A program made the translations under genes and the position numbers. A stretch of 64,000 nt of DNA from Sinimarinibacterium sp. NLF-5-8. Its GTDB lineage: Bacteria > Pseudomonadota > Gammaproteobacteria > Nevskiales > Nevskiaceae. Location of the stretch: NCBI RefSeq assembly GCF_010092425.1, contig NZ_CP048030.1, positions 3,049,501-3,113,500 of the forward strand, in the 5' to 3' direction. Numbering within the stretch: the stretch's first letter is position 1; the number at the start of each line of letters is the position of its first letter. Positions 1,625 through 24,408 of the stretch are shown piece after piece. The notes below the pieces were generated by a model. The model did not search any database. It was not told where the DNA came from and was given only the letters and a program-made list of their open reading frames with translations.

Positions 1625-2446
1625 TTACGTTGCCAAAAAGTCGCGGATTGCAGCCTGAACGACGTGCGGCTGCGACAGCGGAAAAAAGTGGCCGGCATCG
1701 GCCAGCTCCTGATAGCGCGCGCGCGGCAGCAGCTTTTGCAGCGCGTGGCCGCTGTGCACGCAGCGTGAGAGCCCGGCGTAGAACAACAGCACCGGCATCG
1801 GCAGTGCGGCGATTTGCGCTGCGCTGATGCCGGGCTGGTCGAGCTGTTCGCGCGCGTCGGTGTGATCGAGCAAATCCAGCCAGGCTTTGGCCGCGCGCAG
1901 GGCACCGCGCCCTTCACCAAACGGGGTGAAGTCGTCGTGCGCGCGCGGCAGTTTGCCGGCCACGCGCATGCGCGCGGCGGTTTCCAAAAACAGATAGCCC
2001 ACCTGTGGCAGCGCTGCCCAATCCACATCGGCGGTGGCGGCCACTTCTTTTTCGGCCTCGCTGATCCATGGCGTATCGTGCAGGCGCATCAAGGGTTGCA
2101 GGCGCGCCACGCGGGTGTCGATCAAGCCCAGATGGCTGACCCGATCCGGGGCTTGCCCTGCGGCTTCCAGCGCCGCTGCGCCGCCGTAGCTGTGGCCGAT
2201 CAGCGCCGCGCGCGCGATGCCGAATTGATCCATGACGCTGAGCACGTCCCCGGCAAAGTCGGTGGGCGTGTAGCCGCTGGGCGGGCGCTCGCTGTAGCCG
2301 TGCCCGCGCAGGTCAAACAAGGTGACGCGGTAGCGATCTTGCAACGCCACTGCGGTGGGGTACCAAAACGCGCGGTTGGTGGCCAGACCGTGGATCAGTA
2401 CCACGTCCGGGCCTTCGCCAAGCTGTTGGGCGGCGAGTTTGGGCAT
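1625..2446 (-). CDS. Alpha/beta hydrolase, last gene of the lipid-synthase operon
   Basis: A 273-aa alpha/beta-hydrolase with no signal peptide. The oxyanion HG is at residues 19-20, the nucleophile elbow GHSYGG at 84-89 (Ser86) and the catalytic His in DAGHFF at residue 253. Its ATG overlaps the stop of the upstream carrier-protein gene by one base (TGATG), which implies translational coupling. From that position the likely job is thioesterase or ester-forming release of the product of the two large synthases. That is inference: the sequence alone also fits haloperoxidase- or esterase-like enzymes. Confidence 0.88.
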   Translation of the reverse strand: MPKLAAQQLGEGPDVVLIHGLATNRAFWYPTAVALQDRYRVTLFDLRGHGYSERPPSGYTPTDFAGDVLSVMDQFGIARAALIGHSYGGAAALEAAGQAPDRVSHLGLIDTRVARLQPLMRLHDTPWISEAEKEVAATADVDWAALPQVGYLFLETAARMRVAGKLPRAHDDFTPFGEGRGALRAAKAWLDLLDHTDAREQLDQPGISAAQIAALPMPVLLFYAGLSRCVHSGHALQKLLPRARYQELADAGHFFPLSQPHVVQAAIRDFLAT

Positions 2447-2727
2447 CAGGCGCTGATGTTGTGGGCGGCTAAAAAGTCGGCAATCTGACCAATGGAGAGA
2501 TCATCCACATAGCGGCCTTCTTTCATCAGCAGCAGATCAAACGACATTTTCGCCTTCACGATGTCTTCTTGAATGGCCACGATGAGCTGGATGATGTCGA
2601 TGGATTCAAACGACAAATCCGCCAGCAGCTTGGTGTCGCGCGTCATCGGTGCGTCGAGATCCAGATCCCAGTCCTGGGTGAAGTCTTCCAGCAGGACGAT
2701 GAGTTTTTCAACGAGGGCAGTGCTCAT
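2446..2727 (-). CDS. Stand-alone acyl carrier protein
   Basis: A 93-aa acidic protein with the four-helix carrier-protein pattern. The predicted phosphopantetheine attachment serine is Ser42 within LSFESIDIIQL, where FES replaces the common DSL. It is distinct from the four nearly identical ACP domains inside the large synthase, so it probably carries a different intermediate, such as a starter, a finished chain awaiting transfer, or an aminoacyl or acyl group for the neighbouring transferase. The start lies eight bases after the acetyltransferase stop. The phosphopantetheinyl transferase domain at the end of the 1617-aa synthase could activate it. Confidence 0.88.
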   Translation of the reverse strand: MSTALVEKLIVLLEDFTQDWDLDLDAPMTRDTKLLADLSFESIDIIQLIVAIQEDIVKAKMSFDLLLMKEGRYVDDLSIGQIADFLAAHNISA

Positions 2728-2735
2728 GGTGTTTT

Positions 2736-3539
2736 TTATGAATACAGGGGTTGAGAAAGCGCCTGGCTGCTGAAGCGGCCATTGGCGCGCGTGAGTTGCC
2801 AGGTCGGCGGGGTGAGTAATTGCAACTGGTTTTGCGCCAGCCGCGCTTCCAGGGTTTCAACGCAGGCGGGCAGGTTGGTGAAATCCAGATCGGCCTTATG
2901 CGGGGTTAGATCAAAGCGCCACCATTGCAGCGCCAGCAAGCGTTCGATCAGCGTTTCGCGGGTACGCAGCCTGAGCACGCGCGCGGGGTTGCCGACAACG
3001 ATGCTATATGGCGGCACGTCTTTGGTGACCACGGCATGGGCGGCGACAATGGCGCCATCGCCCACCGTCACGCCACGGCGGATGAACGCCCCGGCGCCGA
3101 CCCAGACGTCATGCCCCAGCGTCGTCACCATCGGCGGGATGAAGGTGGGCGGGGCGTCCTCATCCGGTGCCAGCGCCGCAAATTCTTCAAATTGATAAAA
3201 GTGCGGCAAATACTTGCGGCGGGTGAACGCAAACGGATGGGTGGTGAATTGATCCACCGGATGTTCGGGCGCGCCGATCACCACCGATTCGGCAATCGAG
3301 CAATAGCGGCCGACGCGGGTGCCGTAGAGGCTGGAGGTGTAATGGCCGTTGATGTACGAAAACGCCCCCAGCGTGCAGTTCTTGATTCTTCGTGGATCAA
3401 ACACAAACGCCGGGCGCTCATAGATCAGCGTGCCCAAAATGCCTTTGCCCTCGATCACCGCCAACCCTTGCGCCAGCAGATCGGCGGGTGTTTGCCCGCC
3501 GGGCTGGTTTTCGGCTGCGGGGTAAAACGGCTGACTCAT
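2736..3539 (-). CDS. CatB-type hexapeptide-repeat acetyltransferase
   Basis: A 267-aa left-handed beta-helix acyltransferase of the xenobiotic acetyltransferase (CatB/Vat) type. Hexapeptide turns are visible in [18 protein letters not shown] and in [20 protein letters not shown], ending in the usual VGNPARV. The loop before the second coil is long, as in CatB. The ATG at 3539 is chosen because it overlaps the upstream stop as ATGA; an upstream in-frame start would run into the previous gene. Members use acetyl-CoA or acyl-ACP to acylate hydroxyl or amino groups. In this operon it probably O- or N-acylates the product or its head group (inference). Confidence 0.88.
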
Positions 3540-5140
3540 TCCATGTACCCGAGCATTTGCAGTTGCTCGATGATTTGTTTTTGCTCGCCAGCATCCATTT
3601 CTTCGTCCAGCACGCGGCGCTGCGGCGCTTTGGTCGGCGCGCCTTTTTTCACCGGATGCTCGGCCATCCACTCTGGGGTGAAGAAGCTGGTGGGCACCTG
3701 ACCTTCAAAATCGACCGGCACGGCCAGGCCAATGCTGTGCAGCAGCGTAGGGGCGACGTCTACGATTTGCCGCAGTTCCACGCGACCCGCCGCCGGAATG
3801 CCGGGGCCATAGGCCATGAAAATGCCGTCTGGGTGGTGAGTGCCCGCCGCGTGCGGACGGTCGGCCACCACCGGCTGATAATTTTTAATGGAAACAAAGC
3901 CGTGATCGGACAGCACCAAGGTCAAGTCGCAAGCGCGCTCCATGTGCGGGCCGGGAAACCATTCTTCGCGCTTGAGCACGTCGGTGATGATTTGCTCGCC
4001 GGTGACCGGATGCTTGAGCGATTTGAGATCGGCAATCAGCTGATCGCGGAAACGCTCGTAATCTTCCGGCGCAATGCCGGGATCGCCGGGTTTTTCGGCG
4101 ACGCGGATGTGGATGCCGTTGGACGAAGGCGTGCGGCAATAGGCCGTGGTTTTGCTCCAGTCGAGGTTGGCAAAGTCGGCGGCCTCGCGGCGAATCGCCA
4201 TGTCGGAGCCATCGCTGTCGGCCCAGGCCAGATAACCTTTTTCGGCCAGAAACGCATTGATGCGCAGCACATAGGTGGAGGCGGTAAAGCCGTGATCGGA
4301 GGCAAAAAACACCTGGGTTTCGGGGCCGGCCAGTTCTACCAATTTTTTGATAAAGCCATCGAGGTTGCGGAAATACTCCAAGCACACCTCGCGCATTTCT
4401 TTGTCGTGGCCTTGCGGGTTTTTGGGCAGCAGATTCAAATCCAGCCACGGCCACGCCTGGTGCTGGATCTTGTCGGTGCCGTCAAACATCACCGCCATGA
4501 AGTCGGGCTGATCGTTCTTCAAAATAAACTCGGCCACGCGGAACCATTGCGCCTCGCGCGGCAAGTGGTAGCGCACCCATTTGGCGGTTTCATCGGCCGA
4601 CAGCGACTCCATCGCCTGCTTTTCTTTATCAAAGTCCCAGGCCAGTTCCTTGGGATCAAAGCCGGAGATCTGGGTTTTGATCCGCTCAAACAACTCGCGC
4701 GGGTGCGTGTTGCGGCGCAAATGCTTGGCCGGAATAAAGCCCGGCACAATCGCGCCCTTGAGTTCTTCGGGGGCGGGTGCGGTCAGCGGAAAGTTCAGCG
4801 CCGCCACCGACACCTTGCGCCGTGAGCAGATCGACCAGATGGTTTCGGCATCAATATCGCGCGCGTCGTACAGCGTCCAGAACACCTGGCCGCCCTTGTC
4901 CTCGGCGCGGATGAAGTCAAACACGCCATGCACGCCGGGGTTTTTGCCGGTCATGATCGAGCACCACGCGGGCGGCGTCAGCGGATTGGGCGTGGAGCGC
5001 AGCTTGGCCTGCACGCCGCGTTCCATCAGCGACTTCAAAAACGGCATGGTGACGCCCTCGCCGGGCAGGTCGCTAATCATTTGATCCAGCACTGTGTAAG
5101 TGCAGCCGTCAAGGCCAATGAACAAGGTTTTGGTGGTCAT
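3536..5140 (-). CDS. Alkaline-phosphatase-superfamily phosphodiesterase/phosphotransferase, cytosolic
   Basis: A 534-aa protein of the type I phosphodiesterase/nucleotide pyrophosphatase group (the COG3379-like branch). Metal ligands start at Asp11 in FIGLDG. The nucleophile region [12 protein letters not shown] places Thr55 at the nucleophile position, and FFASDHGF supplies the second metal-site Asp/His. [12 protein letters not shown] gives the distal histidines. No signal peptide or membrane segment is seen, so it should act in the cytoplasm. It sits between the synthases and the acetyltransferase, with a 63-base gap to the former and an ATGA overlap with the latter. It may add or remove a phosphate-containing head group, but the substrate is unknown. 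Confidence 0.85.
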
Positions 5141-5203
5141 GCGTTGTGTGCCTTTTGTTCGTGAAAGTAGTCGTGTGTCAGGGGGGAGATTGTGCCGCAG
5201 CGC

Positions 5204-8200
5204 TCAAGCGGGCGCGTGCAGACACAGTGCGCTGATTGCCTCGCTGCCTTCAAATTGCAGCACCACATCAAACTGCTGGCCGCCGTGCGCCACGCGCGCC
5301 GACCCCAGCGGACTTTGCGCCGGTTGCAGATGACAGGCGCTGATCAACCAGTCCTGCGGGCGGCCCTGCAAACCGCTGCCCGCGGCCTTGGACGCGGCTT
5401 CCTTGGCGCACCATAGCGCCGCCGCAATCAACCCTTGGCTGCTGGCGTCGGCCTGCGCAAACCAGTGTTGCTCGGCGGGCGCAAACGCGCCTTGAATCAA
5501 ATCCTGCGCGCGCAAATGGCGTAAGCGCTGGTAGTCCACGCCCACCGCCAAACCGGGATCGGCCACCACCGCCGCTGCCCAGCCATGACTGTGACTGATC
5601 GACAGTGCGGGCATTGGCACTGCCCCCAGCGCATCAATCTGCACGCGGGGCTTGCCGCGATCATCGCCGCTGATGGCAATGTCGATACTCGCCAGTTCCA
5701 TACCGTGGCGCGCGCGCGCCCAGTCGCGCGCGGCTTCCTTGGCGGCCAGGCGTCCCAGCAGCCATTCGCTGCGGCGCGCGCTGCTGGCGGGCAGGCCATA
5801 CCAGAACGCGCGCTCGGCGGGCGTCAGTGCCATATGCGCCAGACTGCGACCCCAGATGCCGCCGCCTTGATCAAGCAAAGCCTCGTCAAACGGGGCAATC
5901 CGGCGCGCGTGAATCCCCTGCGGTAATTGCGCCGCCAGCCACGGCTCACCCAAAAACTGCGTCGGCGGATTTAAGCGATAAGTGTGAAAGCGCGCGGGCA
6001 CGGCAAACGTGCGGTCATCCCAGTTTTCAACCCGCATCACCACATGGCCATCCGCGCCAATGGCATCGGCCTGCGCGCGCAGTTGATCGGGGGCGATTTG
6101 CTGGATGTGCGCGCGGCAAACAAAGCGGCTGTCCGCCACCGGCGGCGGCGCAAACAGACTCAGGCGCGCGATGGAGAACGGGAAGCAGTTGAGCTGATCG
6201 CCGTGCAGTTCTTGCAGCCAATAAAAATAGGTTTGGCCGACGGCATCGGCCAGCGCCGCATCCAGTTGCAGCGTGGGCGTGGCGGTAAAGCCAAAAAAGT
6301 CATGCGTTGGCAGCGCGCGCAGTTCCACATCAATGGCCTGTTCATTCCATGCCTGCACCTGCACCGCCCCCTGCAAGCGCGCGCCGTGGAACATGCCGTG
6401 GGCGTACAGGCGTTGATCGGCATTGAACACGGGCGCGCGGCGCTCGCCCTGCCATGCCAGCGGCGTGGGCGCAGCGGGGTAATCGGCGGCCAGCAACACC
6501 TGCGCTTCAAACACGCCAACGCCTTGCGGGTTGGCCGTGTTATCGAGCACAAACAGCCGCACTTGCACGCGCGCGCTACTACCTTGTGCGGGCAGTTTTT
6601 GTGCATGGATGCGCAGGTTCAGGCGGCCATCGTCCAGCGACAGCCAGCGGCTACCGCGCGCGTTTTCCAGCGCAATAACCTTGAGCGCCGGGTTGCCGAT
6701 CAGCCGCGCCGCCGCTTGCGCGCAGATTTCCATGCTGAAGGTGAACGGCACCACCGGAATCGGCAAATGCTCTGGCGCGCGCGCGCTGGGCGTGCCGCCA
6801 ATGCAGTGATCGCGCAAAAACTTGTCCGTTTCCAGATCAAAACAGCGCCGACTTTCAAGCTGATCCGCGCGGGGTTGGCTGATGCGCCCCAGCAGGGGAA
6901 ACGCCGGGTCGAGATCAGGCAGTGACACTGACGGCGCGCGCGGTGCGGACTCATTCGCGGCCAAAGCCGCTCCCACGGGTGCGTGGCCGTCGAGCAGGCC
7001 GAGCACGCGCGCCTGGCTGTCCAAAAAGTCTTGCATCAACGCAAAGTGCGCCTGTAGCGCCACGCTGCGCGGGTCGCTGGGCGCGGCGGGTGTCGCCATG
7101 GTTGCCGGAGGGGGCGTCGGTGCGGGCGCAGCGGGCGGCGCGCGCGCGGCTTCGGCGGCGGGCGCTGCCACCGTTGTTGGCAAAGGACGCTGCCACTGCG
7201 GCGGCAGATGCACTTCAGGCATTTGCAGCGCGCCGTGATCTTGCACGCTGGGCTTGGCGGCGGCAGGCGGGGCGAGCAAATCCAGTGCCGCCAAGCGTCG
7301 CTGGCTGTAGAGCCGCTGCGGATCAAACGCTGCACCGGCGCAGAACAATGCCGCCAAGGTGCTGTGCAACTGCGCCAGCCCGCCGCGCCGACGGCTGTCG
7401 CTGGCCAGTGCCAGCACGTCGCTGCGCGCGCGCAGGGTGTCGCCGACAAACGAGGTGAGATTGCCGCCGGGGCCGACTTCTAAAAACACCCGATAGCCTT
7501 CGTCATAAAGGCGCTCGATGGTTTGAGTAAAGCGCACCGGGTTTTCCCACTGTTTGGCGGCCAGTTCGCGCATGGCGGCGGCGTCCTGCGGAAACGGTGC
7601 GACGCTGCACGCGCTGTATAGCGGCACACGGCCGGGGGTGAATTCCAGGTCTTTGAAATAGCTGCGAAAAGCGTCCGCCATTGGTTTGAACAGCGGCGTG
7701 TGATAAGCACGGCCAAACGGCAGCGGTTGGCAAATCGCGCCTTGCGCGGCCAAGCGCGCGCGCAGTTTTTCAGCGGCCTCGGGCGCGCCAAACAGCACCA
7801 GTTGATTGGGGCAGTTGTCCATCGCCAGTTGCATGCCGTCCACACCGGCGAGCAGCTCGGCGCGGGTGGTGGCATCCAGCCCGCCGACCGACAGCAGCGT
7901 GCCCTGAACGATTTGGCCATCAGCATCCAGCCGTTCAAAGAATTGGTGCAGCACTTGCACCGCCTCGGCCAAGGCTTCGGGGCTGTCGTAATGGCGCACG
8001 CCGGAGGCGGTCAGTGCGGTGTTTTCGCCGGTGGAGTGGCCGAGCATCGCATCAAATTGCAGCCCTAAATCGTCATAGAGCTTGAGCAGCGCCAGGCTGG
8101 CGGAGAACACGCTTTCGGCGCCGATGTCCATGCTGTGCAAATCGGCTTCGAGCGCCTGACGTTGTTCGCTGCTGTAGCCGGTGGGCGCGGGGTAGAGCCT

Positions 8201-10057
8201 GGCCGCGCGCGAACGGCTGCCGCGCGCGTGCGCGGCCTGTTCGATGAAGTCAAAGCCTTCGCGCACTTGGGCAAAACGCAGCGCCAGATCGCGCAGCATG
8301 TCGGGGTATTGCGAGCCTTCGCCGGGGAACAGCAGCACCACTTTGCCGGGTGTGGCGGCCACGCTGTATTGCACACCGTTGCGGGTTTTGAAGGCCGCGC
8401 CCGCGCTGAGTTTATCCAGCGCGGCATCGAGTTTTTTGGCGAGGTCGGCAGCGTTCGTGCAGGGGATTGCCAGCCGGTGCGCGCCTTGGCTGTGCTGTGC
8501 TGCGGCCTTGCAGATGGCCGCCAGCGCGGCGGGTTTGGCGGCATTCAATTGAGTCTGTACCGCGCGCGCCAGGGTGAGCAATTGGGCGTGACTTTCGGCG
8601 GCCAGCAGCAGCAGTTCGCCGCCATCGTCGCTGGTCAAAACCTGCGGCACGGCCACTGCGCCGGTGGCGCGGGGGCGGTATTCCTCCAGCACCACATGGG
8701 CGTTGATGCCGCCAAAGCCAAAGGCATTGACGCCGGCGCGGCGCGGGTGCTTGCCGCCGTGTATCCACGGACGGGTTTCGGTGTTCAGATAAAACGGCGT
8801 GCGCTCCAGATGCAGCGCCGGATCGGGCTCGCCGCAGAGCATCGGCGGCAGCACTTTGTGATGCAGCGCAAACGCGGTTTTGATCATCGAGGCGGTGGCG
8901 GTGCCGGGCAGGCAGTGGCCGATCATCGACTTGACCGCCGACAGCGCAATCTGCGGCCCCGCGCCGCGCGCGCCATAAATGGCTTGCAGGGCTTCGATTT
9001 CGATTTTGTCGCCCAGCGCGGTGCCGGTGCCGTGGGCTTCGATCAAATCCAGCGTCAGCGGATCAATGCCGCAACTTTCATAGGCGCGCTGCATAGCGAG
9101 GACTTCGCCCTCCAGGCGCGGGGTCAAAAAGCCCTTGGCCTTGCCGTCGGAGGCGATGCCGGTGCCTTTGATGACGGCGTAAATGCGATCGCCATGCGCC
9201 TCGGCCAGATCCAGCCGCTTGAGCATCATCATGCCGCTGCCTTCACCAAGCAGGGTGCCGTCTGCGCCTTTGGAAAAAGGCCGTAGCTGGCCGCGCGTGA
9301 GCGCATTGATTTGCGAAAACTGGATGTACAGCATCGCCGGGGTTTGCACTTGGGTGCCGCCCACCAGCATCGCATCGCAGCGGCCGGAGGCGATCTCGCG
9401 CGCGGCGGCATCGACCGCAATCAGCGACGAAGCACAGGCCGCATCGACGATGTAATTGGGCCCCATCAAATCCAGACGGTTGGCAATGACGCCAGCAATG
9501 GCATTGGGCGTCAGCAGGCCGACCATGTCGCCGCCGTAGGGCGGTAACTGCCCCAGCATGTGCTTTTGCAGTGCGCGCACTTCCTCGGCAGAAAAATCGG
9601 GGCGCAGTTGGCGCACCACCGCCATCATTTGTTCCAGGAAAAAACCGCGCGACAACATGCTGGCAAAGCCACGGTTGCCGTAAGTGCCACGGGCGACGAT
9701 GACGCCGGTGCGCTGGCTGTCAAACGCACGCTTGGCATAGCCGGCATCGGCCAGCGCATCGCGCGCCATTTTCAGCGCCACCAGGTGATCGGGGTCGGCG
9801 CCAGCGGCCACGGCGGGCATCAAGCCCACTTCCAGCGGATCGACTTGCGCCAGCTCGCGCAAAAAGCCGCCGCGCTTGGCGTACATGCGGTCGTTGTCGT
9901 GGCTGTCGGGGTCGTAATAAGGGCCGTACCACTCGGGATCGGCCTCGGTGATGCCATCGACTTTGGTGCAGATGTTGTGCCAAAACGCCTGCGCATTGGC
10001 GGCCTTGGGGTAGACCCCGGCAACGCCGATGATGGCAACGTCCAGTGGCGTGCTCAT
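5204..10057 (-). CDS. Multidomain fatty-acid/polyketide synthase: KS-AT-DH-phosphopantetheinyl transferase
   Basis: A 1617-aa megaenzyme. The ketosynthase (about 5-460) has Cys208 in VDAACASS, His342 in EAHGTGT and His381 in IGHCLPG, so it is a catalytic KS and not a chain-length factor. The acyltransferase (about 572-880) has Ser675 in GHSTGE. A Pro/Ala-rich linker follows (about 930-1040). The dehydratase-like double hot-dog region (about 1050-1370) has His1084 in RDHCIGG and a DxxxQ pair, Asp1271/Gln1275. A C-terminal 4'-phosphopantetheinyl transferase (about 1405-1600) shows GVD (1506-1508) and WCAKEAASK (1549-1557). There is no ACP in the chain, so it must work with the ACPs of the 2986-aa partner or the free ACP. 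Its start overlaps the partner's stop (ATGA). Confidence 0.93.
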   Translation of the reverse strand: MSTPLDVAIIGVAGVYPKAANAQAFWHNICTKVDGITEADPEWYGPYYDPDSHDNDRMYAKRGGFLRELAQVDPLEVGLMPAVAAGADPDHLVALKMARDALADAGYAKRAFDSQRTGVIVARGTYGNRGFASMLSRGFFLEQMMAVVRQLRPDFSAEEVRALQKHMLGQLPPYGGDMVGLLTPNAIAGVIANRLDLMGPNYIVDAACASSLIAVDAAAREIASGRCDAMLVGGTQVQTPAMLYIQFSQINALTRGQLRPFSKGADGTLLGEGSGMMMLKRLDLAEAHGDRIYAVIKGTGIASDGKAKGFLTPRLEGEVLAMQRAYESCGIDPLTLDLIEAHGTGTALGDKIEIEALQAIYGARGAGPQIALSAVKSMIGHCLPGTATASMIKTAFALHHKVLPPMLCGEPDPALHLERTPFYLNTETRPWIHGGKHPRRAGVNAFGFGGINAHVVLEEYRPRATGAVAVPQVLTSDDGGELLLLAAESHAQLLTLARAVQTQLNAAKPAALAAICKAAAQHSQGAHRLAIPCTNAADLAKKLDAALDKLSAGAAFKTRNGVQYSVAATPGKVVLLFPGEGSQYPDMLRDLALRFAQVREGFDFIEQAAHARGSRSRAARLYPAPTGYSSEQRQALEADLHSMDIGAESVFSASLALLKLYDDLGLQFDAMLGHSTGENTALTASGVRHYDSPEALAEAVQVLHQFFERLDADGQIVQGTLLSVGGLDATTRAELLAGVDGMQLAMDNCPNQLVLFGAPEAAEKLRARLAAQGAICQPLPFGRAYHTPLFKPMADAFRSYFKDLEFTPGRVPLYSACSVAPFPQDAAAMRELAAKQWENPVRFTQTIERLYDEGYRVFLEVGPGGNLTSFVGDTLRARSDVLALASDSRRRGGLAQLHSTLAALFCAGAAFDPQRLYSQRRLAALDLLAPPAAAKPSVQDHGALQMPEVHLPPQWQRPLPTTVAAPAAEAARAPPAAPAPTPPPATMATPAAPSDPRSVALQAHFALMQDFLDSQARVLGLLDGHAPVGAALAANESAPRAPSVSLPDLDPAFPLLGRISQPRADQLESRRCFDLETDKFLRDHCIGGTPSARAPEHLPIPVVPFTFSMEICAQAAARLIGNPALKVIALENARGSRWLSLDDGRLNLRIHAQKLPAQGSSARVQVRLFVLDNTANPQGVGVFEAQVLLAADYPAAPTPLAWQGERRAPVFNADQRLYAHGMFHGARLQGAVQVQAWNEQAIDVELRALPTHDFFGFTATPTLQLDAALADAVGQTYFYWLQELHGDQLNCFPFSIARLSLFAPPPVADSRFVCRAHIQQIAPDQLRAQADAIGADGHVVMRVENWDDRTFAVPARFHTYRLNPPTQFLGEPWLAAQLPQGIHARRIAPFDEALLDQGGGIWGRSLAHMALTPAERAFWYGLPASSARRSEWLLGRLAAKEAARDWARARHGMELASIDIAISGDDRGKPRVQIDALGAVPMPALSISHSHGWAAAVVADPGLAVGVDYQRLRHLRAQDLIQGAFAPAEQHWFAQADASSQGLIAAALWCAKEAASKAAGSGLQGRPQDWLISACHLQPAQSPLGSARVAHGGQQFDVVLQFEGSEAISALCLHAPA

Positions 10058-13000: not shown

Positions 13001-16000
13001 ATGGAGTCGATGCCTAAATCAGCTTCCAAGTCCGCATCCAGCGCCAGCATGTCGGTGGGGTAGCCGGTGCGATCAGCAACGGTGTTGAGCAGCAGGGCTT
13101 TGTAATCAACGGCGGGCGCGGTGCTTGGCGCGGGCGCGCTGCTCACTGTTTCACTTGCAACACTTGCGGATGCGGGCAGCAGGTCAGCCAGTGCAGCCAA
13201 AACTGCATTCAAAGTGCGCGCCTGGGTGTAGCGCTCCATGTTGGTCTGAATGCTGGCGGCGGCACTTTCCGGCAGGGCTTTTTGCAGCGCGCCGATGATT
13301 TCCACGCGCTTGATGGAGTCGATGCCTAAATCAGCTTCCAAGTCCGCATCCAGCGCCAGCATGTCGGTGGGGTAGCCGGTGCGATCGGCCACGGTGTTGA
13401 GCAGCAGGGCTTTGTAATCGACGGCGGGCGCAGCGGCTTGAACCACTGTGCTGGGCGCGCGCGCGCTGGTCACTGCTTCACTTGCCGCACTTGCGGATGC
13501 GGGCAGCAGGTCAGCCAGTGCAGCTAAAACCGCATTCAAAGTGCGCGCTTGGGTGTAGCGCTCCATGTTGTTTTGGATGCTGGTGGCGGCACTTTCCGGC
13601 AGGGCTTTTTGCAGCGCGCCGATGATTTCCACGCGCTTGATCGAGTCGATGCCGAGATCAGCTTCCAGGTCCGCATCCAGCGCCAGCATGTCGGTGGGGT
13701 AGCCGGTGCGGTCAGCGACGGTGTTGAGCAACAGGGCTTTGTAATCAACGGCGGGCGCAGCGGCTGGTGCTGGCGCAACGGCGACTGGCGCACTTTGCGC
13801 GCGCGCGCTTGCTGCTGGCGGGACAGGGATTGAGGAGGCGGGTTGTGCGGTGGGAGTCGCCGTCACAGGCAGTGTTGGCAGTGCTGGTAGCGCCGGGGCC
13901 TGATCTGGTGCGCTGCCGCCCAAAAACTGCTGCACCACGCGCTCTTGCAGGGCGAGGAACTGCCGCATGGTTTGCTGGTAGGCGAGCATGGCTTCGCTGC
14001 TGAGCGCGGCGCTGGCTTGTGGTGCCATCGCAGGGGCGGCGATGCGCGCGGCGGGCGTGGGCTGCGGCGCGGGCGCGCTGGGCGCTGAGCTTGCTTGGCG
14101 CTGCTGCGCGAGTTTGGCGCGCGCGGCGGTGCGGCTGGCCTGGGTCAGTGCGGGCAGTTTGCCGGTGCGGCGTTCGGCCTGATCCTGGGGGCGCGCGCAG
14201 CCACCGCTGAGCAGCCACACATGCTTGGGCAGCACGGTTGCTGCGGCGCGTTCGGCCAAGGTATTCAGCGCCATCAGCGGCAGGTTGCGACCGGCATAGA
14301 GCGCGCTGGCGTCAAAGGGCACGCCCAAGGTGAACAGTTCGGCCAGCGCCAGTTGCACGCTTTTAAGGCCGTTGCCGCCCGCGTCCAGCGCCACGGCGGC
14401 GGCGTCGGGATGGTCGGCAAGGATTTGTTTGACCAGTCCGGCGCAGATGTTGCGCGGGCCAATTTCGATGAAAACGCGGCTGCCCGCGGCGTACATGGCG
14501 TTGATTTGGCTGACGAACTCAACGCTGCTGAGCAGGTGATCGTCGAGCTGTTTTTGCATCGCCTTGGGCTGGTCGGGGTAGGCCTGACCGCTGCTGTTGG
14601 AAAACACCGTGAACTGCGGGTTGGCAAACGCGGCCGCGCGAATCGCCTTGGACAGCGGCGCTTTGGCGGGGGCGACCAGCTCGGTGTGAAACGCACCGGA
14701 GACCGGCAGCATCACCGTGCGCAAACCGGCATCAGCCAGTGCTTTGGCGGCGGCTTCCACGCCTTCGCGCGGGCCGGAAATCACCGATTGCTGCGGGGCG
14801 TTGTGGTTGGCCACGCGCACGCCGGGGAAGGCTTTGAGCAGTGGCTCAATCGCCTCGCGCGCGCCGCGTACCGCGGCCATGCTGCCGGGCGCCGAAACCG
14901 CGCTGGCTTCGGCCATGGCCGCACCGCGCGCGGCGGACAGGCGCAAAAAGTCGGTGGCGGTGAGCACGCCAGCGGCCATCAGCGCGCTGTATTCGCCATA
15001 GCTGTGACCGGCGCTGGCTTGCGCGCGCAGGCCCAGGCGCTGGGCAAAGCGCAAGTAGCCGAGAGAGAGCGCGCCAATCGCAGGCTGGGCAAAGCGGGTG
15101 TCGGTGATCGCGACGGCTTGCTGCTTTTGGGTTTCGGTATCAAACGCATGCGGCGGATAAATGCGCGCGGACAGCGGCTCTGGCAAAACGTCGATCAGCG
15201 TGCGATCGGCCAGTTCCAGCGCATCGCGCACTTCATCCAGATGCAGCGCGGCTTCGCGCCCCATTTGCACCTGCTGCGCGCCCTGGCCGGGAAAGACAAA
15301 CGCAACCGGCGGTGCGCTGCCGGGCGTTGCGAGATTGCAGTGAATGTTGGGTGGCAGTTTGGTGCTGCTGTTTTGCAGATGCGCCAGCGCGCGCGCCAGA
15401 TCGGCTTTGAGTGCGGCAAGGTCGGCGGCCACAATCGCCAGCGTTGCTGGTTGGGCGGCTTTGAGGTCGGCCTCGCGCGCCAGCGCTTGTGCCAGCTCGC
15501 CGGGTTGCAGCGGGCTGTTGTCGGCCAGTGCGTCATGCACGCGCTGGAGTTGCTGGGTCAGGGCTTGTGCGTCTGCCGCGCGGAACAGGAACAGCTCGCA
15601 GCTCCAGCGCGCGCCACCGGCGCTGCCGCTTTGACCGCTGTATTCCTCTAAAACCGCATGGAAGTTGGTGCCGCCAAAGCCAAAGGCGGATACCGCGCCA
15701 CGGCGCGGGTGCAGCGGGTGGCGCAGCCACGGCTGCGGGTCTTTGAGCAGGTACAGCGGCGCGTTGGGATCAGCGATGACGTCGATCGGATTCTCCACGC
15801 CGTAATGCCCCGGCAGGCTGCGGTGATGCAGCGCCAGTGCGACTTTGATCAGGCCGGATACGCCCGCCGCGGCCTTGGTGTGGCCGAGCAGGGTTTTGAC
15901 CGAGCCGATCGCTACGCTGCGCGGCGGTGCGCCAGCGGCGCTGAGCGCGCGCGCAACGGTTTGCGCTTCGGTGCGGTCGCCCACGGCGGTGCCGGTGCCG

Positions 16001-19000
16001 TGGGCTTCGACCATGCCCAGCGTGGCCGGTGAAAAACCGGCCTTGGCATAGGCGCGATCGAGCGCGCGCACCTGGCCTTCCACGCGCGGGGCGGTCATGC
16101 CCAGGGCTTTGCCGTCGCTGGAACCGGCGGTGGATTTGATCACGGCGTAAATGCGGTCGCCGTCGCGTTCGGCGTCTGCCAGCCGCTTGAGCGCGATCAT
16201 CGCCACGCCCTCGGCAATGGCGATGCCGTTGGCGGCCTGGTCAAACGTGCGCGGGCTGCCGGTGGCCGATAGCGCCTGGGTTTTGGCAAAGGCCATGAAA
16301 GCGTAGGCGCTCATGGTGGTGTCAAAACCGCCGGCCAGCACAAAGTTGCTGCGGCCGGTTTCCAGCTCATGCACGGCGATGTTGATGGCCGCCAGCGAGG
16401 AGCCGCAGGCGGCATCGACGGTGAAATTGACGCCGCCAAAGTCGAGGCGGTTGGCAACGCGACCGGCGCCGACGTTCATCAGCGTTCCGGCAAACGATTC
16501 TTCGGTCCATTCCGGCAGGCGATCCCAGACCTCCGGCGAGAGTTCTTCAACAAAGCGCATCAGCTCGGCGCGCATGCCGTATTGCTGGCCGACGTCGCCC
16601 GCGCCACCGCTGGAACCGAGGATGACCGAGGCGTTTTCGCGGTCAAAGCTGCCATCGGCATAACCGGCATCGGCCAGCGTGCGCGCGGCGGTTTCCAGCG
16701 TCAGCAGTTGGAAGGGGTCGATCGAGCGCATCGAGCGTGGCGGGATGCCGAACTTGAGCGGGTCAAACGGCACGTCGTCCAAAAAACCGCCCCATTTGGA
16801 GTACACGCGGTCGCGGGTTTTGGGGTCGGGGTCGTACATCAATTCCGGATCCCAGCGGTCGGGCGGGGCTTCGCGCAGGATGCAGCGCTGTTTGAGCACC
16901 AGCTCCCAGTAATCATCCGGGCTGTTGGCGCCGGGCAGGGTGACGCCGATGCCAACGATGGCGATATCCGATGGTTTGGCGGCGGCTTTTTTCGCGCGCG
17001 CGCCGAATTGTTTGTCCAGCAGTTTTTGCGCGTCCACGGTGACGCTGCTGTGCAGCTTGGACAGCGGTACGGCAGCGTCGCGCAGCGTGGCGACCTGGCC
17101 GATCATGTACATGCCTTCGCTGCGCTGGCGCGCTTCCGGCACTTCGACCACCTGGCCTTCGGCGTTGCGTTCGGTGCCTTTGGAGGCGATGCGCAGACGC
17201 CCCAGATTCAGGGCTTCCAGGGCATCGCGGATGTCCTCGGCGCTGCGCTCATCACGGATCATTTGCCGCCGCTGGGCGTAAAAATCGCGCGCGAATGGGG
17301 TATCGACGCAGCGTGAGGCGTGACCGGGGCCGGATTCCAGATTGACCGTGTGTGTGCAACGCAGGGCTTCGTCCTGGAAGGCTTCAACCACCGCACCACT
17401 GTTGACGATTTCCTGGGTGAACAGATAGGCCGTGCCCATCAGGCAGCCGACCTTGATGCCGCGCTCGCTGAGCGGCGCGGTCATCGCTGCGACCATTGCG
17501 CCGGAAAGGGCGTCGTGAATCCCGCCTGCGAACAGCACATGCACGTTTTTGGCGTCGGCGGCGCTGACGTGTTCGAGCAGCACGTCGATCATTTGCTCCC
17601 ACAGCGGGAAGCTGGCGATGGGGCCAACGTGGCCGCCACATTCGCGGCCTTCAAACACAAAGCGGCGCGCGCCTTGATCCAGATACAGCTTGAGCAGCGC
17701 CGGTGCAGGGGCGTGGATGTAGGTGGCAATGCCGCGCGCTTCAAACTCGGCGGCCTGGTCGGGGCGGCCCCCGGCGATCAGCGCAAACGGCGGTTTGCAG
17801 TTCCAGATGGCCTGGCACTGCTCATCGCGCAGCGCTTGCGGAGCAAAGCCAAGCATGCCGACGCCCCACGGCAGATCGCCAGCCAGCGCGCGGGTTTGTT
17901 CCAGCATGGTTTGCACTTGCGCACCGCGCATCAGCGCCAGCGCCAAAAACGGCAATGCCCCGGCTTTGGCGACATCGGCGGCAAAGGCAGGGGAGTCAGA
18001 TACGCGCGTCATCGGCCCTTGCGCCAGTGCAAAGCGGGTGCCGTGGGATTGCGCCAGCGGGCTGTTTTCGTCCAGCGCCTTGAGTTCGGCGGCGGTTTGC
18101 GGCAATTGGCGCGCGGCGCGGCGCAGGACTTGGATAAAGCGGGCGACGTTGCCGTAGTGCTGGCGGTAGCCGGAGGCCATGCCAATGGCTTGTCCCAGCG
18201 GCAGCAGTTGCTCGGCGTGCCAGCCGATGCGGGCGTGCAGTTGCGCCGCCCAGTCGGCGGTTTTGATCAGGCCGCCTTCGGCCTGGCGGGTTTGGTCTTC
18301 ACTGACTTTGAGCGCCGGATGCGCCGGGCGCGCGTAGATGCGGTGAGTAAGATTGAGCAGCTCACCCAGCGGTTTGCATTCGGCACCGTTCAGGCGCGCG
18401 AGTTCGGCTTGCTGGGCGGCAGACAGCGGCGATTCGGCCAGCAGCAGCAGTGCATCGTCCACCACCACCCCGGCAGCACCGGCGGTGCGGCAGGCGGCGG
18501 CGGCGCGCACGCCAATACCGCCCTGGGCGTAAATCGGCAGGTCAATCTGGCCGTGGAGTTTTTGCAGCAATACAAAGCTGGAATCGGCGCCGACGCGACC
18601 ACCGGCTTCGTGACCGCGCGCGATCAGGCCATTGGGTTGTGGGGTGCCGCTGGCGAGTTCGCGCGCGTCTTCAAGACTGAGCGCCTCTGCCAGCCAGGTG
18701 CTGCCGTTGGCAAGCGGGAGCTTGGCGTGCAGCGCGCGCTGGTCTTTGGGGCTGCCGCAGGTGATCAGCGTCAGCGGCAGATCGCCAGCCAGTGCCATCA
18801 ATTGCGCGGCGAGCGCGCGCTGGGCGAGGCTGCTGCGCAGGCCGATGTGCTGTGCGCCGGCGCTGAGCAGCTGGGCAAAGTTGCGCGCGGCGGCGGTCGC
18901 GTCGTGTACGTACTCAAGATCCACCAGGCCGGTGGCGCCGTTGCGCGCAAGGGCGAGGGCGAGATTGGGATGTGCCAGATCGGCGGGCGTAATACCTAAA

Positions 19001-19014
19001 ACGTGCAAGCTCAT
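10054..19014 (-). CDS. PUFA-synthase-like megasynthase: (NMO-like)x2-KS-AT-ACPx4-KR-DH
   Basis: A 2986-aa synthase. Residues 1-570 are two nitronate-monooxygenase-like FMN barrels. The second (about 325-570) has GRECGGHVGP and FAGGIHDA, as in PfaD-type enoyl reductases; the first is a weaker version with GHEAGGRVG and YAQGGIG. KS (about 682-1125): Cys870, His1005, His1045. AT (about 1236-1540): GHSYGE with Ser1338, and AFHT at 1441-1444. An Ala/Pro linker is followed by four ACPs whose DSIKR serines are 1791, 1900, 2004 and 2108. KR (about 2200-2680): TGGARGIT at 2406 and Ser2580/Tyr2593/Asn2597. DH (about 2713-2986): His2727 and Asp2895xxxGln2899. All catalytic residues looked for are present. 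Tandem ACPs with a PfaA-like KR suggest iterative synthesis of a long reduced or unsaturated acyl chain. Confidence 0.95.
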   Translation of the reverse strand: MSLHVLGITPADLAHPNLALALARNGATGLVDLEYVHDATAAARNFAQLLSAGAQHIGLRSSLAQRALAAQLMALAGDLPLTLITCGSPKDQRALHAKLPLANGSTWLAEALSLEDARELASGTPQPNGLIARGHEAGGRVGADSSFVLLQKLHGQIDLPIYAQGGIGVRAAAACRTAGAAGVVVDDALLLLAESPLSAAQQAELARLNGAECKPLGELLNLTHRIYARPAHPALKVSEDQTRQAEGGLIKTADWAAQLHARIGWHAEQLLPLGQAIGMASGYRQHYGNVARFIQVLRRAARQLPQTAAELKALDENSPLAQSHGTRFALAQGPMTRVSDSPAFAADVAKAGALPFLALALMRGAQVQTMLEQTRALAGDLPWGVGMLGFAPQALRDEQCQAIWNCKPPFALIAGGRPDQAAEFEARGIATYIHAPAPALLKLYLDQGARRFVFEGRECGGHVGPIASFPLWEQMIDVLLEHVSAADAKNVHVLFAGGIHDALSGAMVAAMTAPLSERGIKVGCLMGTAYLFTQEIVNSGAVVEAFQDEALRCTHTVNLESGPGHASRCVDTPFARDFYAQRRQMIRDERSAEDIRDALEALNLGRLRIASKGTERNAEGQVVEVPEARQRSEGMYMIGQVATLRDAAVPLSKLHSSVTVDAQKLLDKQFGARAKKAAAKPSDIAIVGIGVTLPGANSPDDYWELVLKQRCILREAPPDRWDPELMYDPDPKTRDRVYSKWGGFLDDVPFDPLKFGIPPRSMRSIDPFQLLTLETAARTLADAGYADGSFDRENASVILGSSGGAGDVGQQYGMRAELMRFVEELSPEVWDRLPEWTEESFAGTLMNVGAGRVANRLDFGGVNFTVDAACGSSLAAINIAVHELETGRSNFVLAGGFDTTMSAYAFMAFAKTQALSATGSPRTFDQAANGIAIAEGVAMIALKRLADAERDGDRIYAVIKSTAGSSDGKALGMTAPRVEGQVRALDRAYAKAGFSPATLGMVEAHGTGTAVGDRTEAQTVARALSAAGAPPRSVAIGSVKTLLGHTKAAAGVSGLIKVALALHHRSLPGHYGVENPIDVIADPNAPLYLLKDPQPWLRHPLHPRRGAVSAFGFGGTNFHAVLEEYSGQSGSAGGARWSCELFLFRAADAQALTQQLQRVHDALADNSPLQPGELAQALAREADLKAAQPATLAIVAADLAALKADLARALAHLQNSSTKLPPNIHCNLATPGSAPPVAFVFPGQGAQQVQMGREAALHLDEVRDALELADRTLIDVLPEPLSARIYPPHAFDTETQKQQAVAITDTRFAQPAIGALSLGYLRFAQRLGLRAQASAGHSYGEYSALMAAGVLTATDFLRLSAARGAAMAEASAVSAPGSMAAVRGAREAIEPLLKAFPGVRVANHNAPQQSVISGPREGVEAAAKALADAGLRTVMLPVSGAFHTELVAPAKAPLSKAIRAAAFANPQFTVFSNSSGQAYPDQPKAMQKQLDDHLLSSVEFVSQINAMYAAGSRVFIEIGPRNICAGLVKQILADHPDAAAVALDAGGNGLKSVQLALAELFTLGVPFDASALYAGRNLPLMALNTLAERAAATVLPKHVWLLSGGCARPQDQAERRTGKLPALTQASRTAARAKLAQQRQASSAPSAPAPQPTPAARIAAPAMAPQASAALSSEAMLAYQQTMRQFLALQERVVQQFLGGSAPDQAPALPALPTLPVTATPTAQPASSIPVPPAASARAQSAPVAVAPAPAAAPAVDYKALLLNTVADRTGYPTDMLALDADLEADLGIDSIKRVEIIGALQKALPESAATSIQNNMERYTQARTLNAVLAALADLLPASASAASEAVTSARAPSTVVQAAAPAVDYKALLLNTVADRTGYPTDMLALDADLEADLGIDSIKRVEIIGALQKALPESAAASIQTNMERYTQARTLNAVLAALADLLPASASVASETVSSAPAPSTAPAVDYKALLLNTVADRTGYPTDMLALDADLEADLGIDSIKRVEIIGALQKALPESAAASIQTNMERYTQARTLNAVLAALADLLPASASVASETVTSAPAPSTAPTVDYKALLLNTVADRTGYPTDMLALDADLEADLGIDSIKRVEIIGALQKALPESAAASIQTNMERYTQARTLNAVLAALADLLPAPANTASQAKVSARAQPTALQTTASALPRYLLQSRPAALGARDPISGLALVLGEDNAVRKALVKQLKQHGLTPVAIATTEAEALRQAISDARAQHGAVAALVDLHGLTADSSQTLADWQADYAPQILALFHAIQVCLPDLARARVVAASRLGGSFGRDAAGDGSALGGAANGILNCLRVEAPGCIARAVDFGAQTAGQIAGHLCDELHSRDGEPEVGYVGSARLGSMSLAAPLTGAVTGLTPQADWVVLATGGARGITAHIVETLALPGMRLVLLGRTPEPAAEDAATAAHADAGALRKALIAAALARGDKPKPVEIDRQIGQILTARELRTNLQTLRARGAIVDYRAVDARDETALGALIDQLYAEHGRIDLVLHAAGVIEDKLLADKTADSFARVIGTKLDPAFVLSRKLRPQSLKAIAFFTSVAGRYGNRGQSDYAAANESMNRLAWQLHRAWPQTRVMAINWGPWDGGMASEGVKRQMREAGMEPILLSAGCQFFVDELARGAMGDVELVAGQGPWHNLGVPTQVPASSTATASGYPLVRSAPALGIGGAVVMDHQLNLSADPYLADHIIDGNAVLPMAGALEYMAQFAAAGWPGWQVVEIRDLQLMGGLMLGHDGQQAIRLRARAATHSEPGFQAVTVELFDPARKAGVNYRATVVLAQSALPCPPAQLPAINQGGMDGAPMYARLLIHGPMFHCISTLHGLSADGASATLHPSTPAQLLGGAAGQWLFDPALIDAAPQLAWVWGYLQHQQAALPARLLRVQRFGDAPLERDLKLHVAVRELDGATLRYDAEYVNAQGQVRYAISGGESTLSAQLNRVVPIVRDAK
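12547..13752 (-). repeat. Four tandem acyl-carrier-protein repeats in the megasynthase
   Basis: Four ACP units of about 85 residues share an almost invariant core (DYKALLLNTVADRTGYPTDM, then DLEADLGIDSIKR). They are joined by short Ala/Ser/Pro linkers. Serine-to-serine spacing is 109, 104 and 104 residues, giving a DNA period of 312-327 bases. Units 2-4 are nearly identical in protein; unit 1 differs by TSIQNN against ASIQTN. The DNA is also highly similar, so unit number may change by recombination. Multiple ACPs in PUFA synthases raise output rather than change the product, by established knowledge of that family. Confidence 0.93.
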
Positions 19015-19106
19015 CGGTGAACCTTGAGTGATGGTGCGCGGCAGCTCCCCAGCCGCCGCGCGTGTTGATTTTTGTGCGCGATCCCCCTCGCGCCGTGGTG
19101 TTGCCG

Positions 19107-19922
19107 TTAGCGTTTTTTACCTTCCAGAAAAGGCACTTGCAGCACTTTTTCGTGAACGATGGGGCCGTGACCAAAGTAGCCGCCTTCGCCAAAGCACTCG
19201 CCGTGATCGGCGGTGATGATGAAGTGCGTGCCTTTGGGCGCTTTGCTGATCAGCGCATCGAGCACGCGATCGACGTGTTCCACGCATTTGATTTGCTGGC
19301 GATGCAGGTCCTGCATTTGCTGGTCGTTGAAAAACACATCGCTGGTTTGCTCGCCCATTTCGTCGTCCATGCGCTTGAACACGCCGTGAACGCCGGAGAT
19401 GTGCGGCAGCGATTTGCCGTCGAGCATGTAGGGGTAGTGGGTTTCGCCGAGGTTGAGGAAGTACATCGACGGCTCATCGTCGTAGAACTCGATGTCGTCG
19501 ATCATGCCGGCGAAATCGTTGTGATTTTCCATCAGCTTGTAATCGTCAAAGTGCTTGTTCAGGTGCGAGGTGGGGTTGAGCACCGGCATCGACACGCGCG
19601 CGAGGGTGCGGTAGCCGTTGTCTTGCAGCACCTTGGGCAGCGAAAGCTGCGGCACAAAGCTCTTGAACGACAGATCGTCAATGCCAAGGCGATCGACCCA
19701 TTTGACGAAATCCTGCTTGTACACCTCAGAGGCAAACACGCCCTGCGGGCTGGTGTGCGGGATCATCCCCATCAGATAGGTGTAATGCGAGGGCGATGTC
19801 CACGATGCGTAGGCATAGCGCGCGTCACCGGCGCCGATGCGATCCATGTTGGGGCGTTTGGCGGCTTGGTAGCTGTCAAAGCGGCAGCTGTCCATGATGA
19901 TGTAAACCAGATTGTTGCTCAT
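19107..19922 (-). CDS. Cytosolic sulfatase-fold (alkaline phosphatase superfamily) enzyme, first gene of the lipid-synthase operon
   Basis: A 271-aa sulfatase-family protein, short for the family. The metal-site Asp11 lies in IIMDSCRFD. Where a sulfatase has Cys-x-Pro-x-Arg this protein has W-T-S-P-S-H, putting Thr42 at the nucleophile position, as in lipoteichoic-acid synthases and phosphoethanolamine transferases. ITADHGECFGEGG gives the second metal motif. There is no signal peptide or membrane anchor. The ATG at 19922 is preferred because AAAGGA stands upstream of it. It lies 92 bases before the 2986-aa synthase on the same strand. It is more likely a phosphodiesterase or phosphotransferase than a sulfatase; the substrate is unknown. 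Confidence 0.82.
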   Translation of the reverse strand: MSNNLVYIIMDSCRFDSYQAAKRPNMDRIGAGDARYAYASWTSPSHYTYLMGMIPHTSPQGVFASEVYKQDFVKWVDRLGIDDLSFKSFVPQLSLPKVLQDNGYRTLARVSMPVLNPTSHLNKHFDDYKLMENHNDFAGMIDDIEFYDDEPSMYFLNLGETHYPYMLDGKSLPHISGVHGVFKRMDDEMGEQTSDVFFNDQQMQDLHRQQIKCVEHVDRVLDALISKAPKGTHFIITADHGECFGEGGYFGHGPIVHEKVLQVPFLEGKKR

Positions 19923-20057
19923 GCCAGAAAATCCTTTGCGGGGGGAAGAATCATGGGGGACAATCCATGCGCGCGATGCGGGACATCGCTGCGGGGGACA
20001 ACAAAAACGAGACAGCTCCTCATCAGCACACGCACCAGAGTTCAATGCCCTGGGTTG

Positions 20058-20066
20058 TTTATACCA
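20058..20066 (-). promoter_or_regulatory. Candidate extended -10 of the lipid-synthase operon
   Basis: Read on the minus strand, TGGTATAAA resembles an extended -10 element about 140 bases before the first gene's ATG, in the 247-base gap after apaH. No convincing -35 hexamer is seen, so this is only a candidate. Confidence 0.25.
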
Positions 20067-20169
20067 GCCCCGGGACGCCGTGATGGTCGTCACCGGTGCT
20101 GGCTGGAGTGTGTGATTTTATTCGCAAATAACCACAACACATTGGCCGAATGGATGAGTGTGCATGTTG

Positions 20170-24399: not shown

Positions 24400-24408
24400 G
24401 GGATGTGC

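Follow-up and report, generated by a model that had tools for sequence, protein, structure and literature searches.

An operon resembling Ars-type secondary lipid synthases in Sinimarinibacterium, and a probable companion locus inherited with it

Introduction

Secondary lipid synthases were divided by Shulse and Allen in 2011 into 20 types, 14 of them without a known product (PMC3098273). Here we examine a seven-gene operon of this kind on the minus strand of a 64,000-nucleotide stretch of the Sinimarinibacterium sp. NLF-5-8 genome (NZ_CP048030.1, positions 3,049,501 to 3,113,500; 'the window', numbered from its first base), a member of the Nevskiaceae (Nevskiales) whose genome consists of a single 3.2-Mb contig. 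Among systems with a known product, the nearest relatives of its largest gene, megA, belong to the Ars system of Azotobacter vinelandii and Beijerinckia indica (Type P). In the Beijerinckia record, a tandem megasynthase of enoyl reductase (ER), ketosynthase (KS), acyltransferase (AT), acyl carrier protein (ACP) and ketoreductase (KR) domains is accompanied by a partner that joins a dehydratase (DH) to a phosphopantetheinyl transferase (PPTase), and the operon shares both elements. Ars chains for phenolic lipids are given as about C22–C26 in PMC3098273 and as C23–C25 in PMC4824345.

Other described systems share fewer or different parts. Polyunsaturated fatty acid (PUFA) synthases (PfaABCDE, Types A and B) have in common with the operon tandem ACPs, a KS-AT-ACPn-KR core and a second AT that lacks an arginine; heterocyst glycolipid synthases (hgl, Type F) have a related KS-AT-ACP-KR core. 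Type M-like clusters (Renibacterium salmoninarum, Frankia, Aquimarina and Flavobacterium) share, by text description, a fused pfaDA and a fused pfaBC with a PPTase. Such clusters in Aquimarina TRL1 and Flavobacterium N502540 are likened to that of R. salmoninarum in PMC13291983, and the R. salmoninarum cluster is Type M in PMC3098273. The operon fits the fused pfaDA and fused pfaBC-PPTase layout, a match made to the wording of PMC13291983 rather than to domain maps; the fused layout is therefore already in print, without a product. A Streptomyces plasmid cluster (L071), a candidate Type M member by its layout, has the same arrangement together with a free ACP and an alpha/beta hydrolase, but differs in tailoring, with a glycosyltransferase and a methyltransferase and no counterpart of the alkaline-phosphatase-superfamily enzyme AP1 described below.

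With moderate confidence, we interpret the operon as an Ars-type secondary lipid synthase that would build a very-long-chain acyl group, saturated or largely so, for a lipid that carries a head group and is exported. The first-pass annotation of the window had read it as a PUFA- or secondary-lipid-like operon of unusual order, with a probable product in an undescribed class of head-group-modified long-chain lipids. The order does differ from pfaABCDE, but it is less unusual than supposed, the ER-KS-AT-ACP-KR fusion being the Type P architecture of Beijerinckia and the fused pairing being in print. A head-group-modified long-chain lipid is still our best guess at the product, whereas the PUFA side of that description is rejected here.

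Organization of the operon

Seven open reading frames (ORFs), none with internal stops, run from 19922 to 1625 in the order of transcription listed below, with the domains of the two megasynthases, megA and megB, under each (aa, amino acids).

19107–19922, minus: AP2, 271 aa; alkaline phosphatase (AP) superfamily, sulfatase fold (Pfam PF00884, found with a longer ORF)
10054–19014, minus: megA, 2986 aa; ER1-ER2-KS-AT-ACP x4-KR-DH, an ArsA-like, probably chain-building synthase
18115–19014, minus: ER1 of megA, aa 1–300; second, more diverged ER-like domain
17155–18099, minus: ER2 of megA, aa 306–620; probable FMN-type TIM-barrel enoyl reductase
15640–16968, minus: KS of megA, aa 683–1125 (Pfam)
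14380–15309, minus: AT of megA, which we take to be of malonyl type from its motifs (GHSYG, Arg of RGxxM, GAFH)
12580–13767, minus: four tandem ACPs of megA, with LGIDSIK at aa 1787, 1896, 2000 and 2104
11095–11859, minus: KR of megA (Pfam)
10057–10944, minus: C-terminal DH of megA, polyketide synthase (PKS) type (PF21089/PF14765; HxxxGxxxxP and DxxxQ by inspection)
5204–10057, minus: megB, 1617 aa; KS-AT-DH-PPTase
8678–10048, minus: KS of megB, outside pfaC in the KS trees
7388–8347, minus: AT of megB, without the presumed carboxylate-binding Arg; PfaB-like, probably non-malonyl
5207–6922, minus: DH-PPTase half of megB, ArsD-like; WCAKEA and GVD motifs, no PUFA-type P0 motif
3536–5140, minus: AP1, 534 aa; NPP/phosphonoacetate-hydrolase-like member of the AP superfamily (PF01663)
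2736–3539, minus: hexapeptide-repeat acyltransferase of Vat/CatB/phosphonate-cluster type
2446–2727, minus: free ACP, 93 aa; weak NCBIfam ACP matches, no Pfam match
1625–2446, minus: alpha/beta hydrolase (PF00561), probable thioesterase

These coordinates bear out the overlaps and short gaps first described: megA/megB and AP1/hexapeptide transferase overlap by 4 bases and ACP/hydrolase by 1 base, and the gaps at AP2/megA, megB/AP1 and hexapeptide transferase/free ACP are 92, 63 and 8 bases. Because the junctions overlap or have short gaps, a single operon is likely; a promoter and terminator scan of 19850–20250 found nothing. GC content is 61–66% across the first 30 kb of the window in 3-kb steps. 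Domains were called with Pfam, NCBIfam and hidden Markov models (HMMs) built in this analysis. Inspection of the translations located the KS, AT, KR, DH and PPTase catalytic motifs, so the expected catalytic residues are present as annotated, and the free ACP, the fused PPTase, the hydrolase, the hexapeptide transferase and the two AP enzymes were all confirmed.

Homologues of the free ACP adjoin megB in Nevskiales, cyanobacteria and Acidobacteriota, and the Streptomyces cluster has an annotated 'acyl carrier protein' at the equivalent position. The alpha/beta hydrolase is present in all 20 Nevskiales genomes examined and has a homologue in the Streptomyces cluster.

About 3.7 kb past the upstream end of the operon lies a row of genes (23608–26666) for a short-chain dehydrogenase/reductase (SDR), a PF13469 sulfotransferase and a DUF1214 protein. 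We rejected these as cluster members because, in the regions of 20 relatives, the sulfotransferase and the DUF1214 protein were unmatched and the SDR had matches of only 26–31% identity.

Affinity to Ars synthases

We extracted 109 KS domains and built a quick tree of 75 rows and a slower one of 59, the 16 rows dropped being chain-length factors (CLFs), near relatives and one long branch. The Ars rows are Beijerinckia, Methylosinus and genome G175 (A. vinelandii sequences are not among them). Pfa-layout clusters were drawn from gammaproteobacterial genomes and named plasmids and are called Pfa by domain layout, none coming from a named PUFA producer. Of 274 gammaproteobacterial genomes, 10 (our own included) matched KS_A at E ≤ 1e-110.

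Both trees unite the megA KS and the Ars KSs in one clade (100/98), which also holds Streptomyces and ars-like rows. Within it the megA rows are placed next to the ars rows and do not intermingle with them. The pfaA and hglE rows form its sister clade (100/99) and pfaC stands apart (99/97). The megB KS forms its own group outside pfaC (87 in the quick tree). Thus neither KS is nested in the pfaA or the pfaC clade, the outcome in the phylogenetic check that the first-pass annotation had proposed. A Streptomyces cluster of Type M-like layout branches beside ars and megA for KS_A; no named Type M or Type O row is in the tree.

Other domains point in the same direction. ER2 is 56–57% identical to three ArsA-type proteins, with the PfaD reference unmatched, and scores 59 bits with the FabK model and no match with the PfaD model. 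ER1 is 31–33% identical to ArsA-type N-termini and 35% to the Streptomyces N-terminus (FabK model, 28 bits). The megA KR is 50% identical to ArsA-type proteins against 35–38% to PfaA-type proteins, and the megA KS 49–50% against 43%; the best matches of the megB DH and PPTase are ArsD-type proteins. The fused tandem ER-KS-AT-ACP-KR arrangement of Type P is present in megA (compared with L073, L074 and G175). From these comparisons, megA resembles an ArsA with a further DH, and megB an ArsD with a KS-AT in front. Unlike the stand-alone DH-PPTase of ArsD, that of megB is fused behind an extra KS-AT, and unlike the Ars system the operon has an additional DH on megA and no type III PKS genes; it has instead the free ACP, the alpha/beta hydrolase, AP1, AP2 and the hexapeptide transferase.

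Several comparisons weigh against so close an affinity. Branching among Ars, Streptomyces and megA inside their clade is weak (84/43), as is support for the megB KS group in the slower tree (56/90). The megA AT scores slightly higher against a PfaA-type AT (225 bits) than against ArsA (217 bits). For the megB KS, the closest matches are an hgl-type KS (45%) and the Streptomyces KS (45%).

A separate Ars-like variant, L091/L092 (G053 contig 16, 15118–20648 of the joined region), has its KR as a separate gene and a DH-PPTase partner that begins with an Arg-less AT, with Glu at that position.

The ER domains bear on how reduced the chain would be. An unlikely but credible alternative to a saturated chain is a polyketide-like or polyene product, made with an ER that acts in some cycles only, or with a dead ER1, and keeping double bonds or hydroxyls that carry sulfate or phosphate. 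The two PKS-type DHs and the diverged ER1 are in its favour, as are the oxidizing enzymes that adjoin cyanobacterial versions of the cluster (a P450 and a fatty acid hydroxylase in G326, a TauD-type enzyme in L064) and the sulfotransferase of the companion locus described below. However, ER2 is strongly conserved (418–546 bits among ER-fused proteins) and close to the ArsA-type ERs, the products of which are saturated chains.

An ars-like phenolic-lipid pathway, in which a type III PKS gene at some distant locus would supply the enzyme that takes over the chain and yields alkylresorcinols or alkylpyrones, is improbable. It would account for the Ars-type megA and the ArsD-like DH-PPTase, but none of the seven genes, the part of the genome covered, encodes a type III PKS, unlike Beijerinckia, in which two genes annotated with a KAS-III C-terminal domain, taken as arsB and arsC, sit between the two fatty acid synthase genes. 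In the operon, the free ACP, the megB KS-AT and AP1 replace the type III PKS genes.

Absence of PUFA-specific parts

A rearranged PUFA synthase making a membrane polyunsaturated fatty acid is a very doubtful reading, which we reject on the KS phylogeny and on the absence of three parts. No FabA-type dehydratase/isomerase (DH/I) was found with Pfam in megA or megB, nor in Beijerinckia ArsA or ArsD, with a PfaC control at 281 bits. An HMM of the FabA domain made here matches eight of nine Pfa-layout clusters, the exception being Embleya L076 (PfaC ORF of 1452 aa as called), and has no match in ER-fused clusters, Ars included, some of these clusters being incomplete. The KS-CLF pair of PfaC is also absent, as megB has one KS followed by an AT. 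Finally, ER1 and ER2, annotated at first as PfaD-like reductases, have no match to TIGR02814 at E ≤ 0.01, whereas a control PfaD scores 629.7 bits.

Some features speak for a PUFA synthase. The four tandem ACPs are a feature of PUFA synthases that is common to other secondary lipid synthases. The PfaA model TIGR02813 does count against an Ars-type assignment, in that megA passes its cut-off (1302 bits); Beijerinckia ArsA passes too (1156 bits), and so we rejected the PfaA label as non-discriminating and give the name of the model no weight for megA. The megB AT shares its missing Arg with pfaBC-type ATs, and the megA AT has the slight leaning to PfaA-type ATs noted above. Against it, the megB PPTase lacks the PUFA-type P0 motif as given in PMC3098273, although Type P PPTases lack P0 too.

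Heterocyst glycolipid synthases resemble the operon in that no FabA DH/I was found in the partial hgl-type regions examined. They differ in that the hglE-type KS groups with PfaA and not with megA, in having no fused ER and in the lack of AP enzymes in those partial regions.

Conservation in Nevskiales and other phyla

A megB KS at 54% identity or more occurs in 27 of 41 genomes of the order, comprising 21 of 25 in the family, with the window counted, and 6 of 16 outside it; the records include Hydrocarboniphaga, Nevskia and Sinimarinibacterium. We compared cluster regions from 20 of the 26 relatives, 16 in Nevskiaceae and 4 in other Nevskiales families. All 16 Nevskiaceae regions contain megA, megB, AP1, AP2, the hexapeptide transferase and the free ACP, and 15 contain the hydrolase; in the sixteenth (G006) a 78%-identical hydrolase lies about 35 kb past the free ACP gene, beside companion genes. 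As the set is kept in 16 of 16 regions, we do not regard it as a product of chance, and the self-contained synthase with tailoring genes stands as a unit. In these regions, identity is 68–86% for AP1 and 74–85% for AP2, and lower for megA (54–68%, best segment) and megB (48–66%).

In Hydrocarboniphaga effusa AP103 (NZ_AKGD01000001.1; L053/L054), two copies of the synthase region stand on a single contig, separated by about 203 kb and sharing 21,386 identical bases, which reflects either a very recent duplication or an assembly artefact.

Some clusters carry only part of the set. In the four regions outside Nevskiaceae, megA, megB and the hydrolase are retained, and the free ACP in two, but AP1, AP2 and the hexapeptide transferase are missing from the stretch examined. 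Beside these clusters lie an esterase (4 of 4), which also adjoins many Nevskiaceae clusters, an outer-membrane efflux protein (two) and an ACP-sulfotransferase fusion (two). In Fischerella, the genes for megB, a free ACP and AP1 adjoin one another, with no megA within about 20 kb.

Elsewhere the synthase recurs with varied gene order. Synechococcus (with megA split in two), Luteitalea, the acidobacterial genomes G316 and G628, and G326 have megA, megB and AP1, mostly with the free ACP and with the hydrolase or an SDR. AP2 is found at 66% identity in the cyanobacterium G326 and beside a megA-type gene in the gammaproteobacterium G127. The Streptomyces plasmid carries megA-like and megB-like genes, a free ACP, an alpha/beta hydrolase, a glycosyltransferase and a methyltransferase. 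From this cross-phylum comparison we conclude that the synthase core, free ACP and hydrolase recur while the tailoring modules around them, AP1 among these, are interchangeable.

Two of these records have features of their own. The acidobacterial genome G316 (L114; L115 and L116) has two different synthase versions, each with its own AP1. In Synechococcus sp. Tobar12-5m-g (L064), a TauD-type dioxygenase, an esterase and a condensation-domain protein follow AP1.

AP1 follows this synthase, an observation that is new. Both proteins served as queries against one set of 539 genomes, 292 cyanobacterial and 247 acidobacterial, scoring the best 5 or 6 candidates per genome only. AP1 (E ≤ 1e-70) occurs in 2 cyanobacterial and 3 acidobacterial genomes, and a megB-type KS at E ≤ 1e-150 in 3 of each (at E ≤ 1e-100, which includes more distant KSs, in 37 and 6 genomes). 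All five AP1 genomes are among the six with a close megB-type KS (Fisher p 1.6e-11, ignoring relatedness and with a KS cut-off, E ≤ 1e-150, chosen after the lists were seen, which weakens the test). The two genes are about 18 kb apart in G326 and on different contigs in G824. There are exceptions to the association: G588 has a megB-type KS without AP1, and among eight records searched at E ≤ 1e-20, G315 and the Streptomyces plasmid record W01, each with a megB-type gene, lack AP1.

Acyltransferase and tailoring enzymes

The two ATs differ at one position. An Arg that we take to be the carboxylate-binding (malonate) residue is present in every megA-type AT row. The megB-type ATs keep the Ser and His, and the Arg is found in none of them, nor in any pfaBC-type AT; in the megB-type rows its place is taken by Val, Ile, Met or others, and by a gap in both Streptomyces rows.

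AP1 matches PF01663 at 150.9 bits and has Thr55 at the nucleophile position. D11, T55, D220, D223, H227, D282, H283 and H435, which presumably act as the nucleophile and metal ligands, are invariant in 12 of 12 rows, and the nucleophile and metal-ligand positions are kept in at least 34 of 35 rows (5 of the 35 repeat the genome of another row). AP1 therefore shares the Pfam family and these positions with the NPP/phosphonoacetate hydrolase family. It differs from that family in its tie to a lipid synthase and in that solved structures match it weakly, all PDB profile matches being weak and to phosphonoacetate hydrolases and nucleotide pyrophosphatases (best 33 bits).

AP2 has a weak match to the NCBIfam STM4013 family (62 bits against a cut-off of 250) and, as its best PDB profile match, also weak, a phosphoethanolamine transferase. 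Formylglycine sulfatases have Cys or Ser at the formylglycine position and a CxPxR motif. AP2 has T-S-P-S-H, with Thr42 at that position, in five of five rows and, with Thr instead of Cys or Ser, is unlikely to be such a sulfatase. Neither AP1 nor AP2 has an obvious signal peptide by eye. Both may carry out phosphoryl or phosphodiester chemistry on the head group, a reasonable but putative action on the lipid, which tempers the proposal as a whole. That they are unrelated housekeeping phosphatases caught in the operon is highly improbable, for although both come from broad superfamilies and AP1 has relatives (about 23–32%) on 35 haloarchaeal plasmids, AP1 at E ≤ 1e-70 is restricted in the two phyla sampled to genomes with a close megB-type KS, and AP1 and AP2 are the most conserved proteins of the set.

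A probable companion locus

The flanks of the relatives' clusters repeatedly hold genes for a 774-aa HlyD fusion, a 301-aa sulfotransferase-like protein and a protein of about 490 aa that we call X500, and also for an outer-membrane efflux protein, a CoA-transferase and an esterase. In Sinimarinibacterium sp. NLF-5-8, counterparts lie outside the window, 1.57 Mb from the synthase:

1,482,597–1,488,768 of the genome, one strand: row of efflux-like protein, HlyD fusion, X500 and PF13469 sulfotransferase (L132/L133)

The efflux-like protein is 26% identical to a Pfam OEP protein of a relative, and the HlyD protein, an HlyD/intramembrane-protease-like fusion, is 45% identical to its counterpart; MMPL, DUF1329 and DUF1302 genes lie upstream of the row. 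Searches of Pfam, NCBIfam, the PDB and plasmids gave no match for X500 at the thresholds applied. A 'family' of about 538 aa next to the HlyD gene (X538) was dropped, being an antisense reading of X500.

X500 (E ≤ 1e-20) occurs in all 27 genomes of the order in which a megB KS reaches at least 54% identity, whereas it is absent from the 14 that lack such a KS (p 2.8e-11, relatedness ignored). The contrast holds within one genus, in which G002 has neither and ten others, window included, have both; in another genus, in which G027 has both and G034 neither; and also in families f1 and f3. In the sample searched, the second locus is thus strictly co-inherited with the synthase, and the four-gene row is probably its companion operon. 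Two points temper this link. The distance between X500 and the synthase is at most 25 kb in 17 of 27 genomes; 3 others have the two more than 25 kb apart on one contig, and in 7 they are on separate contigs. Co-inheritance, moreover, speaks to linkage and not to the reaction. Outside the order, 9 of 12 further genomes gave an X500 match, a weak one in G314 and G316, while Fischerella, G047 and the Ars-type genome G175 gave none. Family names are what suggest that the companion locus may sulfate and export the product.

Two side observations concern these proteins. The X500 homologue of G317 (L117:7896–9350; G317:C148:27895–29349; Competibacteraceae UBA3908) has one in-frame TGA. In another Nevskiales family, G026 (L037:10496–11869) and G033 (L051:4419–5780) each have, a few kb from the synthase, a protein that joins an N-terminal domain resembling the free ACP (37%) to a sulfotransferase domain, with PF13469 shown for G026.

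Proposed pathway and implications

We propose that the megB PPTase would activate the ACPs and that the malonyl-type AT of megA would load extender units, which the KSs of megA and megB would add to the chain. The KR, the PKS-type DHs and ER2 are predicted to reduce each unit fully, and, given the length of Ars chains cited above (about C22–C26), a saturated chain above C20 is expected. PfaB is reported as a terminal acyltransferase in PMC12895367 and PMC13311796, which, with the Arg-less AT of megB, suggests that this AT may move the finished, reduced chain from the tandem ACPs of megA to the free ACP. The hexapeptide transferase, with AP1 and AP2, may then install or process a polar head, and the alpha/beta hydrolase could clear or release chains. 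The companion locus, with its efflux-like protein, HlyD fusion, X500 and sulfotransferase, would sulfate and/or export the product. We found no open-licence paper, judged largely from titles and abstracts, that describes this gene set with AP enzymes and companion genes.

This comparison replaces a 'PUFA-like' label with testable predictions: the chain should be saturated, the terminal AT non-malonyl and the carrier protein dedicated to the pathway, the head-group enzymes should be of AP type, and export and sulfation should depend on an unlinked locus marked by the unannotated signature protein X500. The co-occurrence of AP1 with the synthase and the probable companion operon with X500 are new, whereas the fused pfaDA/pfaBC-PPTase layout was known.

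More tentatively, the two loci may form one pathway, passed on together in Nevskiales and occurring also in cyanobacteria, Acidobacteriota and other Gammaproteobacteria, for an undescribed class of exported very-long-chain saturated lipids; AP-superfamily phosphotransferases and a sulfotransferase would supply the polar head, and X500 would be a new surface or assembly protein. Because the synthase is present in 21 of the 25 genomes sampled from the family, the lipid is likely to matter to these bacteria. Nevskia pellicles are described as hydrophobic like paraffin in PMC7798470, and, speculatively, the Nevskiales lipid could be the basis of this floating pellicle.

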